Shown here piece by piece: positions 5,251 to 45,442 of a stretch of 54,435 nucleotides of DNA (position 1 is its first letter; every line of letters begins with the position of its first letter). The notes beneath the pieces are model-generated. The model did no database searches, was not told where the DNA came from, and was given only the letters and a program-made list of their open reading frames with translations. The DNA comes from Candidatus Methanoperedens sp. (GTDB lineage: Archaea > Halobacteriota > Methanosarcinia > Methanosarcinales > Methanoperedenaceae), in the NCBI GenBank assembly GCA_028715885.1, contig JAQUQX010000005.1, positions 12,226-66,660 of the forward strand, read 5' to 3'. The position numbers and the translations under genes are program-made.

Positions 5251-6588
5251 TTAATGACATGAAATAGCTATCTTTCTGGACTTCAGCCATTTATCAATCA
5301 CATCTTCCAGCCTGACATCCACTTCCTCAATCCTGTAACTCACCCTCACGACGGGCTTGTTGAGCTTCAAGAGGCTTCCAAGGTTGATGGGCGTTCCCGC
5401 AATCACAGAATCGCATTGCGCAGCATTTATGGTTATTTCAAGCTCTTTCATCTGGGCTTCGCTATAACCCATGGCAGGCAACACTCTGACAATATGGGGA
5501 TAATCTTTGTAAACTTTCAATATAGAACCAACCGCATGTGCCCTCGGGTCAACGATTTCTTTTGCCTCATAGTTTTTTGCAGCGATAATGCCTGCGCCGT
5601 AGCTCATCCCGCCGTGGGTCAGGGTGGGTCCGTCTTCCACGACCAGAACGCGCTTTCCTTTTATCATCTCCTGCCTGTCAACACTTATCACGGAATTGGC
5701 TTTTATGATAGTTGCTTTTTTATTTATTGACCTGACATTCTTGATAACCAGTTCTACATCCTCTTTCCTAGCTGAATTTACCTTGTTCACAATAACCACG
5801 TCCGCAAGAAGCACATTCACTTCCCCCGGATAATAGGTCAGCTCATGCCCGGGTCTGTGGGGGTCTGCGATAACAATGTGCAGGTCGGGTTTGTAGAAGG
5901 GGATGTCGTTGTTTCCCCCGTCCCATATGATAATATCCGCCTCAGTTTCAGCAGCGTCAAGGATTTTCCAGTAATCGACGCCGCTGTAAACCACGCTCCC
6001 GCAGCAGATATACTGCTCGTACTCCTCCCGCTCTTCTATTGTGCACTCATTGCGAATGCAGTCCTCCATCGATGCAAACCTCTGGCATTCCTGCTTGCGC
6101 AAATCGCCGTAAGGCATGGGATGGCGCACAACAACTACTCTCCACCCTTTTTCCTTCAATATTTCCACAAGCTTGCGAGAAGTAGGGCTTTTGCCTGCGC
6201 CGGTTCTCACGGCGCATACTGAGATTACAGGCTTTTTTGACCGGAGCATTGTGCTTTCAGTCCCCATAAGCCAAAAATCTGCTCCAGCCGCTAAAACCTG
6301 CGATGCTTTTTGCATAACCGCGTCATGCGATAAATCCGAATAAGCCAGAACCACCTGTTCGATACCCTTCTCTTTTATGAGCCGTGCCAATTCTTCTTCG
6401 GGATAAATCGGAATATCTTTTTCATACAGCGAGCCTGCCAGTTCCGCAGGATAAACCCGTCCTGCGATTCCCGGAATCTGGGTGGCTGTAAAGGCTACTA
6501 CCTCATAATTTCCGTTATCCCTGAAAAATACATTGAAATTATGAAAATCCCGCCCGGCAGCGCCCATTATCAGAACTTTTGTTTTCAT
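5251..6588 (-). CDS. Cyclic 2,3-diphosphoglycerate synthetase-like P-loop protein
   Basis: A 445-residue cytoplasmic protein. The N-terminus (KVLIMGAAGRDFHNFN) and the Walker-A-like loop CAVRTGAGKSPTSRK near residue 130 are typical of the family annotated as cyclic 2,3-diphosphoglycerate synthetase. Downstream the segments IIIWDGGNNDIPFYKPDLHI, VVIVNKVNSA and DGPTLTHGGMSYGAG also match that family. The founding enzyme makes the thermoprotectant cDPG from 2,3-diphosphoglycerate; many homologues occur in organisms without known cDPG, so substrate identity here is uncertain. It is the first of three same-strand genes leading into the NikR-like gene (15 nt apart) and the ATPase. Confidence 0.75.
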   Translation of the reverse strand: MKTKVLIMGAAGRDFHNFNVFFRDNGNYEVVAFTATQIPGIAGRVYPAELAGSLYEKDIPIYPEEELARLIKEKGIEQVVLAYSDLSHDAVMQKASQVLAAGADFWLMGTESTMLRSKKPVISVCAVRTGAGKSPTSRKLVEILKEKGWRVVVVRHPMPYGDLRKQECQRFASMEDCIRNECTIEEREEYEQYICCGSVVYSGVDYWKILDAAETEADIIIWDGGNNDIPFYKPDLHIVIADPHRPGHELTYYPGEVNVLLADVVIVNKVNSARKEDVELVIKNVRSINKKATIIKANSVISVDRQEMIKGKRVLVVEDGPTLTHGGMSYGAGIIAAKNYEAKEIVDPRAHAVGSILKVYKDYPHIVRVLPAMGYSEAQMKELEITINAAQCDSVIAGTPINLGSLLKLNKPVVRVSYRIEEVDVRLEDVIDKWLKSRKIAISCH

Positions 6589-27799: not shown

Positions 27800-28573
27800 C
27801 TACCTGCTCAAATCCACGACCTCATAACTCAACCCCTCGGACTCAAGCCTGTTAAGCAGCGAGGGAACCTCCTCGTCCACAGAAACCACAAGCGAGGAAA
27901 GCCCATGAAAAGCCGCCTCAACAACGGATTCCTTGGCGCCGAAAAGAATGTTGGGCTGGACATTAATCTTCCTGAGGGAGACCAGCGCCTCCACGCCAAG
28001 CGCCGCAATATAAGGCTTATTCGCCGCATATTTTCTCAGCATCTCGTAATCCACGCTGCGCGAGCCCCCCCTCTCAACACGCGGCACTTTACAGATAGTT
28101 ATATTGACAGGAGGAAAAGTTATCATCCCCTTCAAATCCGTAACCCCGACCTCCTCACCCTCTTGCGCCCCTGATATTGTAATACCCGTGACCTCGCCCT
28201 CTCTGCCTGCGTACAGCAAACCCTTCTCCATCCAGAGCGAAACCTTCTGTCCTTTATCAAGTCTTTCCCTGGCAATTGCAGTCGCGACAGAGATATGACT
28301 GACAACATCTTCCATGACAAAACGCGCGTATTTTTTCAATTCCTGAGCCCGCTCAAGAACCCACTCAACCCCTTTTTTAGTAACGCGATAGCGGACGCGA
28401 CCGTCGGCGAATAAAAGCCCCTCAGAAACAAGTTCTTTGATATATTCTGAGACCGCCTGCGGAGTTATGCCGATTGTATCAGCGATTTCCTTCTGCATCA
28501 CATCAGGCTGGTGCGCGGCAATCTCAACAAGTATCTGGAATTTTGTAATTTCTTTTTTACTCCGCAGTATCAT
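27800..28573 (-). CDS. Predicted HTH transcriptional regulator, COG1497-like
   Basis: A 257-residue regulator. Residues 14-60 are a winged helix (MQKEIADTIGITPQAVSEYIKEL as helix-turn-helix, then a wing with FADGRVRYRVTKKG). The rest is a long domain containing ISGAQEGEEVG, KVPRVERGGSRSVD and ILFGAKESVVEA, as in an archaeal family of predicted regulators without known ligand. Its ATG (28571-28573) is the first triplet of a 9-bp hairpin, the first of nine in the adjacent spacer, which could affect initiation. Confidence 0.8.
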   Translation of the reverse strand: MILRSKKEITKFQILVEIAAHQPDVMQKEIADTIGITPQAVSEYIKELVSEGLLFADGRVRYRVTKKGVEWVLERAQELKKYARFVMEDVVSHISVATAIARERLDKGQKVSLWMEKGLLYAGREGEVTGITISGAQEGEEVGVTDLKGMITFPPVNITICKVPRVERGGSRSVDYEMLRKYAANKPYIAALGVEALVSLRKINVQPNILFGAKESVVEAAFHGLSSLVVSVDEEVPSLLNRLESEGLSYEVVDLSR

Positions 28574-28805
28574 AAAGGGTTACGCCCCTTTATGGCGCAT
28601 AGGGTATGCAAAGCATACCCTTCCGACTCACGCCTCGGGAGGGCGTGTCCACGTAAACCGATACCCCGGTTTACGTGGTGTTCAGGTATGCGAAGCATAC
28701 CTGTCGTTTGATAAACCTTTCTTAAAGGTTTACGTATGGCTTCGCCATATGTGTGCGCGGTGTAAACTGACACAACAGTTTTTGATAAAACTTTCTTAAA
28801 GTTTT
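28571..28805. repeat. Block of nine consecutive hairpins
   Basis: Nearly the whole gap between two minus-strand regulator genes is made of short inverted repeats: 28571-28594 (9-bp stem), 28602-28620 (8), 28629-28647 (6), 28649-28678 (12), 28683-28703 (9), 28712-28732 (9), 28735-28749 (6), 28764-28781 (6) and 28787-28805 (8). Loops are 3-7 nt. Some units are related: gggtatgcaaagcataccc with caggtatgcgaagcatacctg, and taaacctttcttaaaggttta with aaaactttcttaaagtttt. The last abuts the stop codon of the gene at 28806; the first contains the start codon of the gene ending at 28573. Function unknown. Confidence 0.85.
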
Positions 28806-29315
28806 TCATTCGGTTTCCCCGAGCAATTCAATCCTCTGTCCTTTTACCGACAGGATTGATGAACGTCTCGCCACTGCGCGGATAAACATGATGCTTTTAT
28901 CTACTACCCTCTGGAGACCGTTCATTGACTGGTTGCCGCCCTTAACCTCTTTCTCGATTGCTTCAATATAACTTCTTAATTCGCTGTCGCTCTTGAAGGT
29001 GACCATTATCATGTCGCTTAAATCCTCAACTGAGCACTGGAAGTTGACCTGTACCCTGGAATAGGACGACTGGTATTCTTTTTCCGGTGTTTTCCCGGGC
29101 TGCGGCATTCTCCATTTACTCTCCACAAACCCGCTCTTTTTTAAAATATCTATACTTTCACGCGGTTCAAACCCCACCGTTTTCTCTATCTCCTCTTCAG
29201 TTTTCCAGCCATTTTGCAGGCAGTCAAAAACTTTCTTGTGGGTGTCCGAGCCAAAGGCGCGCAGAAGCGGAACGATATCCGATGGTTCATTAATAATACG
29301 TGTTCTTTTGCCCAT
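28806..29315 (-). CDS. ArsR-like winged-helix transcriptional regulator
   Basis: A 169-residue protein. The N-terminal 70 residues look like a winged helix (IVPLLRAFGSDTHKKVFDCL, EEEIEKTVGFEPRESIDILKKSGFVE). The remainder contains VQVNFQCSVEDLSDMIMVTF, a segment seen in a group of archaeal ArsR-type regulators of unknown signal. The stop codon touches the hairpin block. The gene upstream on this strand is only a fragment, so it has its own promoter, probably near 29320-29400. Confidence 0.72.
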   Translation of the reverse strand: MGKRTRIINEPSDIVPLLRAFGSDTHKKVFDCLQNGWKTEEEIEKTVGFEPRESIDILKKSGFVESKWRMPQPGKTPEKEYQSSYSRVQVNFQCSVEDLSDMIMVTFKSDSELRSYIEAIEKEVKGGNQSMNGLQRVVDKSIMFIRAVARRSSILSVKGQRIELLGETE

Positions 29316-44665: not shown

Positions 44666-44770
44666 GATTGGATTTTGAATATATTATGGATGGGTATTAT
44701 GTGTTTCGGTTGCGGAACTTTGCCTCAGTACTCATAGGGCTCATCACGTTTTCAGCCTTGTTTTGTCTCA

Positions 44771-45442
44771 TCATCGGCATTTTTCAATATCTTTCGCTAT
44801 TTTTTCAGCTTCTCTCCCCGGCGTCTTTGAATTGTAAATACTACGCCCAACAATAACATAATCCGCGCCCGCCCTTATCGCATCCGCCGCACTTCCTCCC
44901 TGCGCGCCCACGCCCGGCGAGATTATGGTCAGGTTGCCGACAATCTTTCGGATTTGTTTCACCCTGTCAGGGCGAGTCGCCGGCGCCACCACGCCCTGCG
45001 CTTTGCATTCAACTGCAAGGGCGGCAAGCTCCAGAGCCTTTGGCGCCATGAACTCAACGGCTCCGGGATGGCTCATTTCCGTGACAACAAATATCCCGCC
45101 TTTATATTCTTGCGCCGTTTTAACGCATTCAAAAAGGCTGTCGCTTCCTGTAAAGCCATGCACGATAACAGCACTGGCGCCGGCTTCAAACGCCTGGCTG
45201 CAAATCAATTTATTGGTATTCGGGATGTCAGCCACCTTAAAATCCGCAATCACAGGCGCATATTCGCATATCTTTTTAATTATTCCCAGTCCCGCGCCCA
45301 GAACAAGCGGGTAGCCTATCTTGATGGCATCCACATGCTCTGCCGTCTCTTTTGATATTGTGACTGCAACGTTCTTGTCTGTAACATCAAGGGCAAGGAT
45401 GAGGCGCGTGTTCTTACGCATATAAGCCATAAAGTATCTCAA
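44771..45442 (-). CDS. pyrF: Orotidine 5'-phosphate decarboxylase
   Basis: A TIM-barrel enzyme, last step of UMP synthesis. Motifs: [21 protein letters not shown], the catalytic [15 protein letters not shown] (Asp-x-Lys-x-x-Asp), [10 protein letters not shown] and [14 protein letters not shown]. The first start gives 223 residues; the internal ATG at 45421 ([13 protein letters not shown]) gives 216 and resembles relatives more. No other pyrimidine genes are near. Confidence 0.95.

Follow-up and report, generated by a model that had tools for sequence, protein, structure and literature searches.

An apparently mobile family of palindromic mosaic elements at ATGA start codons of Candidatus Methanoperedens, probably tolerated as coupled mini-cistrons

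The hairpin block that separates the genes of an ArsR-type and a DUF7839 regulator in Candidatus Methanoperedens is one member of a dispersed element family that is confined to this genus in the collections searched. We consider it likely that the family is an apparently mobile mosaic of palindromes that enters at the ATGA of gene starts and is tolerated as what would be a translated, coupled mini-cistron. More tentatively, and short of what we would call probable, it may represent a new class of mobile element whose machinery targets ATGA starts and which, by posing as a coupled mini-cistron, could invade essential genes without loss of expression. We found no description of the element in the open-access literature searched. 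The window analysed is the whole stretch of 54,435 nt from contig JAQUQX010000005.1 (assembly GCA_028715885.1), to which all positions refer.

Seven near-perfect inverted repeats with stems of 8-12 bp and loops of 3-6 nt tile positions 28571-28805, and two weaker ones (28629-28648 and 28764-28781) bring the total to nine, the number given in the initial annotation (Table 1). The predicted fold of the minus-strand RNA also consists of nine consecutive hairpins, with -113.7 kcal/mol compared with -70.2 for dinucleotide shuffles (z = -8.65, 0 of 200 being as good). The two recurring unit types of that annotation, gggtatgc-type and taaacctttctt-type, correspond to families D1-D4, and it had correctly placed the downstream start codon in the first hairpin and the beginning of the last hairpin at the upstream stop codon. 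Its reading of the block as an untranslated spacer has to be abandoned: on the minus strand the block is a single uninterrupted ORF of 79 codons (28809-28570), inserted with an ATGA on each side; its ATG overlaps the ArsR-type stop codon, and its TGA overlaps the DUF7839 start codon. Neither this 79-aa peptide nor the 27-aa peptide of smaller elements matched a Pfam or NCBIfam family. An Rfam scan of the whole window detected no family at the block; its single match, elsewhere on the minus strand (44723-44778), was the C/D-box sRNA sR41, with a score just over the gathering cut-off.

Table 1 Features of the element and of its two flanking genes (positions in the window).
Feature	Positions	Strand	Evidence
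Mini-cistron of nine hairpins, 79 codons, MKNFKKVLSKTVVSVYTAHTYGEAIRKPLRKVYQTTGMLRIPEHHVNRGIGLRGHALPRRESEGYALHTLCAIKGRNPL and stop	28570..28809	-	Translation; same architecture in 58/73 elements
Left ATGA: TGA, ArsR-type stop; ATG, mini-cistron start	28806..28809	-	Sequence; single ATGA at congeners' empty sites
Right (second) ATGA: TGA, mini-cistron stop; ATG, DUF7839 regulator start	28570..28573	-	
Hairpin 9, left-end module (ATGAAAAACTTTAAGAAAGTTTTATCA)	28784..28809	-	Kept in nearly all copies, 71/77 elements
Hairpin 8, internal module (AAACTG-TTGTGT-CAGTTT)	28764..28781	-	
Hairpin 7, internal module (ACATATGGCGAAGCCATACGT)	28732..28752	-	
Hairpin 6, internal, similar to left-end hairpin (TAAACCTTTAAGAAAGGTTTA)	28712..28732	-	
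Hairpin 5 (CAGGTATGCTTCGCATACCTG)	28683..28703	-	
Hairpin 4 (CCACGTAAACCG-GGGTAT-CGGTTTACGTGG)	28649..28678	-	
Hairpin 3 (ACACGCCCTCCCGAGGCGTG), weaker stem	28629..28648	-	
Hairpin 2 (AGGGTATGCTTTGCATACCCT), middle hairpin of the 84-nt minimal element	28601..28621	-	
Hairpin 1, right-end module type 2 (CATAAAGGGGCGTAACCCTTTATG); start codon of next gene within stem	28571..28594	-	
Upstream gene, ArsR-type regulator (PF09824)	28806..29315	-	
Downstream gene, winged-helix regulator with DUF7839 (PF25211)	27800..28573	-	

BLASTN searches with the block returned 47 matches at about 30 places of its own 2.1-Mb genome and, in a first search, matches in 18 of 23 congeners, with match boundaries coinciding with hairpin boundaries; none of 16 genomes from other genera of the order was matched. 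One fixed hairpin (ATGAAAAACTTT..) forms the left end of each copy and another (CATAAAGsg..CTTTATGA) the right end, with one or more palindromic modules in between. The left end is the same across the printed copies (ATGAAAAACTTTANGAAAGTTTTATCA), and there are two main types of right end (CATAAAGCGAGGTGTCGCTTTATGA and CATAAAGGGGCGTAACCCTTTATGA). Across Methanoperedens both patterns were found repeatedly, with zero matches for reversed control patterns, and neither was found in viral contigs. An exact scan for the left end across about 85,000 prokaryote species matched 73 stretches, 72 of them from Candidatus Methanoperedens, counting otherwise-named assemblies whose contigs match the genomes searched from this genus; the lone match in Ruminococcus is probably due to chance. 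In the search for an autonomous parent in the genome that carries the block, left ends lay near a right end or other modules of the element, and no copy read carried a transposase gene. The genes downstream of the copies are unrelated, encoding RNA polymerase, ribosomal proteins, an isoprenoid synthase and a nucleotidyltransferase among others (names other than those of the two regulators were assigned by reading translations, not by family search).

The smallest common form of the element has 84 nt, three hairpins and 27 codons, and larger forms differ from it by extra whole hairpins. At the ArsR/DUF7839 junction the aligned blocks of four genomes (G022, 111 nt; G000, 240 nt; G005, 273 nt; G011, 83 nt) likewise differ by whole hairpins. 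Three of these lengths (111, 240 and 273 nt) are divisible by three. The modules have been added or lost as whole hairpins, with growth in frame as judged from these alignments; the initial annotation had suggested growth by duplication. The stems, in which a lack of covariation would have spoken against that annotation, covary strongly, with 58 double-changed cells versus 18.7 in shuffles and 0-15 when the pairing is slid. Together with the very stable fold, this covariation would be expected of a structured RNA (a riboswitch, an attenuator or a processing signal) acting between two co-transcribed regulators. This reading is largely refuted by the dispersal of the family and we regard it as very improbable: hairpin number and order vary freely, no Rfam family was matched, and most relatives have zero nucleotides between the two genes. 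Since the same family precedes unrelated genes, attenuation specific to the two regulators is also rejected, and of the three guesses in the initial annotation only the nest of tiny mobile palindromes came close, in that the block is a mosaic of palindromic modules, dispersed in the genome and variably present at conserved gene junctions.

The ArsR/DUF7839 junction has both empty and filled states. Fourteen of the 21 congeners having the gene pair lack the insert; that annotation would have taken relatives devoid of palindromes as evidence against its block, and such relatives do exist, yet their absence of insert points to insertion and not to an artefact. In 12 of these 14 the two genes meet within a base at one ATGA, and the other two hold scar-like remnants of 15-16 nt (ATGAAAAACTTTACTTTATGA in G016, L071; ATGAAATTTTTTCTTTATGA in G012, L074), which look like excision scars or internal deletions of a former element. 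Inserts of 78-268 nt are found in G000, G005, G015, G022, G011, G007 and G010. A tree of the two proteins implies a minimum of three changes to explain the filled state, as required by well-supported branches, so that the site was filled more than once or the insert was repeatedly lost. The same contrast was seen at six more loci, those of the Met-aminopeptidase-like, RpoA'', TfuA-like, eL19, uL14 and nucleotidyltransferase genes. At all seven loci a single ATGA at the empty site becomes ATGA-element-ATGA at the filled one, an arrangement that a target-site duplication would leave and that looks identical if the element brings its own ATGA to lie beside the target ATGA. For uL14, for example, G015 reads gaggtggcaaaATGAGAGGG and G009 reads gaggtggcaaaATGAaaaacttt...cgctttATGAAAGGA. 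Within the limits of sequence comparison, these junctions show insertion at the ATGA of a gene start that leaves an ATGA on both sides.

In the type strain Ca. M. nitroreducens (G014), the element near the uL14 start (L390) is shortened (ATGAAAAACTTTATGAACATAAAGCGAGGTGTCGCTTTATGA), which suggests an internal deletion with both ends kept. A duplication of 3 rather than 4 bp was considered for the copy C7, which ends in ATGC, and was rejected: the starts in relatives are ATGA, several TTGA and one ATAA, and because the relatives' start reads ATGA the ATGC is most simply a later substitution. Tandem copies (C35 and C36 of G022; C61 of G040) have one ATGA in common at their junction, as expected if the element's own end serves as target.

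The position and reading frame of the element were assessed in 73 complete copies that the two end patterns had located in six genomes, with the regions of relatives picked by end-pattern matches and not by gene context; the copies are related, and counts among them are therefore not counts of independent events. In 70 of the 73 an ORF of 45 codons or more starts at the terminal ATG, one more being cut by the end of the fetched stretch, where the random expectation, from a crude gene call in the window, is that about 22% of non-coding ATGA sites are possible start codons. In 37 copies the first ATGA also closes an upstream ORF of 60 codons or more; in the remainder the first ATG resembles the old start codon, with a Shine-Dalgarno-like motif upstream in more than half. 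In 58 of the 73 copies the frame that starts at the first ATG stays open as far as the TGA of the terminal ATGA. It closes at a TAA 6 nt ahead of the terminal ATG in 10, 16 nt ahead of it in two and 13 nt inside the downstream gene in one; in two tandem copies the first frame ends near the beginning of the second element. Of the two remaining forward frames, one is open in 0 and the other in about 3 of the 73; in short copies one of the reverse frames frequently stays open, since the palindromes mirror the frame. Every one of the 10 copies with a length of 1 mod 3 has the right-end type in which a TAA stands just ahead of the ATG (hypergeometric p about 8e-4, assuming independent copies).

Given that 58 of the 73 copies are open from start to stop, and that the frame of one copy (L100) continues into a protein, the mini-ORFs could encode genuine small proteins or leader peptides selected for a function such as attenuation of the downstream gene. 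We find this improbable: among 23 different 84-nt copies the variable columns fall almost equally on codon positions 1, 2 and 3 (14, 12 and 11), indicating that the frame rather than the peptide is kept, and the peptides differ widely between copies and match no Pfam or NCBIfam family. The downstream genes also have no functional connection with one another, and most relatives lack the insert at the junction in question. The open frame thus looks conserved and the peptide does not. The copy L100 lies in the type strain, where from position 1500 the frame of the element, which has the left-end motif three times, continues without a shift into that of a longer protein (200 residues within the 600 nt read), the element forming an N-terminal extension.

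Under the preferred reading of a coupled mini-cistron, the element would enter at an ATGA that is the start codon of a gene and often also the stop of the preceding one. A ribosome due at the original gene would then translate the mini-cistron instead (27 codons long in the 84-nt form and 79 at the ArsR/DUF7839 junction), stop on the new start codon and re-initiate there by termination-reinitiation. Overlapping gene pairs of prokaryotes commonly share an ATGA (PMC6728339), and in Haloferax termination-reinitiation needs an overlap or a very short distance, a gap of about 20 nt between stop and start nearly abolishing coupling (PMC10666635). With a frame opened at the old start and closed on the new one, downstream translation is plausibly preserved, and the invaded operon is probably still translatable; mimicry of a coupled cistron may thus be why the element is tolerated in operons and before essential genes. 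Coupling does not seem to be always maintained, since some copies are frameshifted, among them those of G011, G007, G010 and G015 at the ArsR/DUF7839 junction. Right-end type 1 contains a Shine-Dalgarno-like GAGGTG inside its hairpin, 7 nt before the ATG, so that downstream translation could start without coupling, and de novo initiation at this motif may offer a second route once a ribosome opens the hairpin. What is conserved in the hairpins would be their nucleic-acid structure, which probably serves mobility in the form of folded single-stranded DNA and may also hide the next start site. We infer translation of the mini-ORF, its coupling and an enzyme acting on folded single strands.

The element resembles REP/BIME sequences, Rickettsia palindromic elements (RPE), PARCELs and MITEs, and lacks at least one tested defining feature of each. 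With REP/BIME sequences and their RAYTs (Y1 transposases) it has in common short dispersed palindromes assembled in mosaics, many copies (about 30 places in its own genome, breaks at hairpin boundaries, 72 genus-restricted matches), a tetranucleotide beside a hairpin and no terminal inverted repeats. It could accordingly be a non-coding palindromic repeat of this kind moved by a RAYT, its frame a by-product of which insertions survived and the downstream gene using the Shine-Dalgarno motif of the right end, a reading that we consider unlikely. The GAGGTG of right-end type 1 fits it, as do Y1_Tnp genes in 29 of 31 congeners and ends that each have their own hairpin beside a fixed tetranucleotide, as in IS200/IS605-type recognition. 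However, in the genomes searched the presence of Y1_Tnp does not track the element, which argues against it as the mover: G015 (96% complete) has more than 30 right ends and no Y1_Tnp, G022 has only a Y1_Tnp remnant, and G043, with ten Y1_Tnp matches, has no elements. REPs occur mostly outside genes, flanked by convergent or unidirectional ones (PMC3733652), whereas nearly every copy of this archaeal element ends on a start codon in one orientation and 58 of 73 are a single ATGA-bounded, coupled-type open frame, which this reading leaves to be explained along with the association between right-end type 2 and the TAA.

RPEs are also palindromic, about 100-150 bp long and dispersed, and reading frames survive their insertion (PMC10969869; PMC3733652). 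They lie in frame inside genes and lengthen proteins, whereas the Methanoperedens element sits between genes, at start codons, with its own start-to-stop frame, L100 being the one fusion; RPEs were compared by description, and the end-pattern scan of about 85,000 species matched Methanoperedens and the one Ruminococcus stretch. PARCELs resemble it as modular, dyad-symmetric coding sequence mobile within genomes (PMC2996958) and differ in forming tandem domains of 25 residues with a conserved hydrophobic pattern in longer ORFs. The Methanoperedens copies, each a mini-cistron at ATGA junctions, show no visible constraint at the peptide level and no tandem amphipathic repeat of about 25 residues, as judged from codon-position variation and not with the PARCEL HMM. 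MITEs are likewise non-autonomous, short and dispersed, with a short direct repeat flanking each copy. Unlike theirs, the ends of the Methanoperedens element are two different hairpins, the left end (ATGAAAAACTTT..) and the complement of the right end (TCATAAAGsg..) not being inverted copies, and no parent transposon with such ends was found among the copies read. IS200/IS605-type elements, moved by HUH Y1 transposases, have hairpins at both ends, insert beside a fixed short target and lack terminal inverted repeats. The Methanoperedens element is alike in these three respects, and differs in having no internal transposase and in a distribution that does not follow that of Y1_Tnp.

Inside the operons of a gene-dense genome a mobile element would be expected to do harm, and insertion at a stop/start ATGA by an element itself acting as a coupled cistron would be a natural solution. 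Its sites include the start codons of essential genes (the uL14, eL19 and RpoA'' loci), which, if the proposal is true, could be invaded and yet keep their expression. There are dozens of natural insertions ahead of known genes, with empty sites in close relatives, and these could be used for tests of archaeal termination-reinitiation. Some small hypothetical proteins and "leader ORFs" annotated in Methanoperedens may be element-borne, and the element may provide a route for the origin of new small genes or N-terminal extensions.

About 9 of the 30 places in its own genome hold partial modules in other contexts. Partial modules that lack both ends and lie outside start-codon contexts were seen in four stretches (L010, L020 at 5722-5766, L034 and L035). 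In another stretch of the same genome (L026, C46), ARAGORN with introns allowed assigned positions 1981-2151 of the minus strand to a tRNA-Tyr(GTA) with a 96-nt intron in the anticodon loop, and this intron holds two hairpin modules of the Methanoperedens element family.
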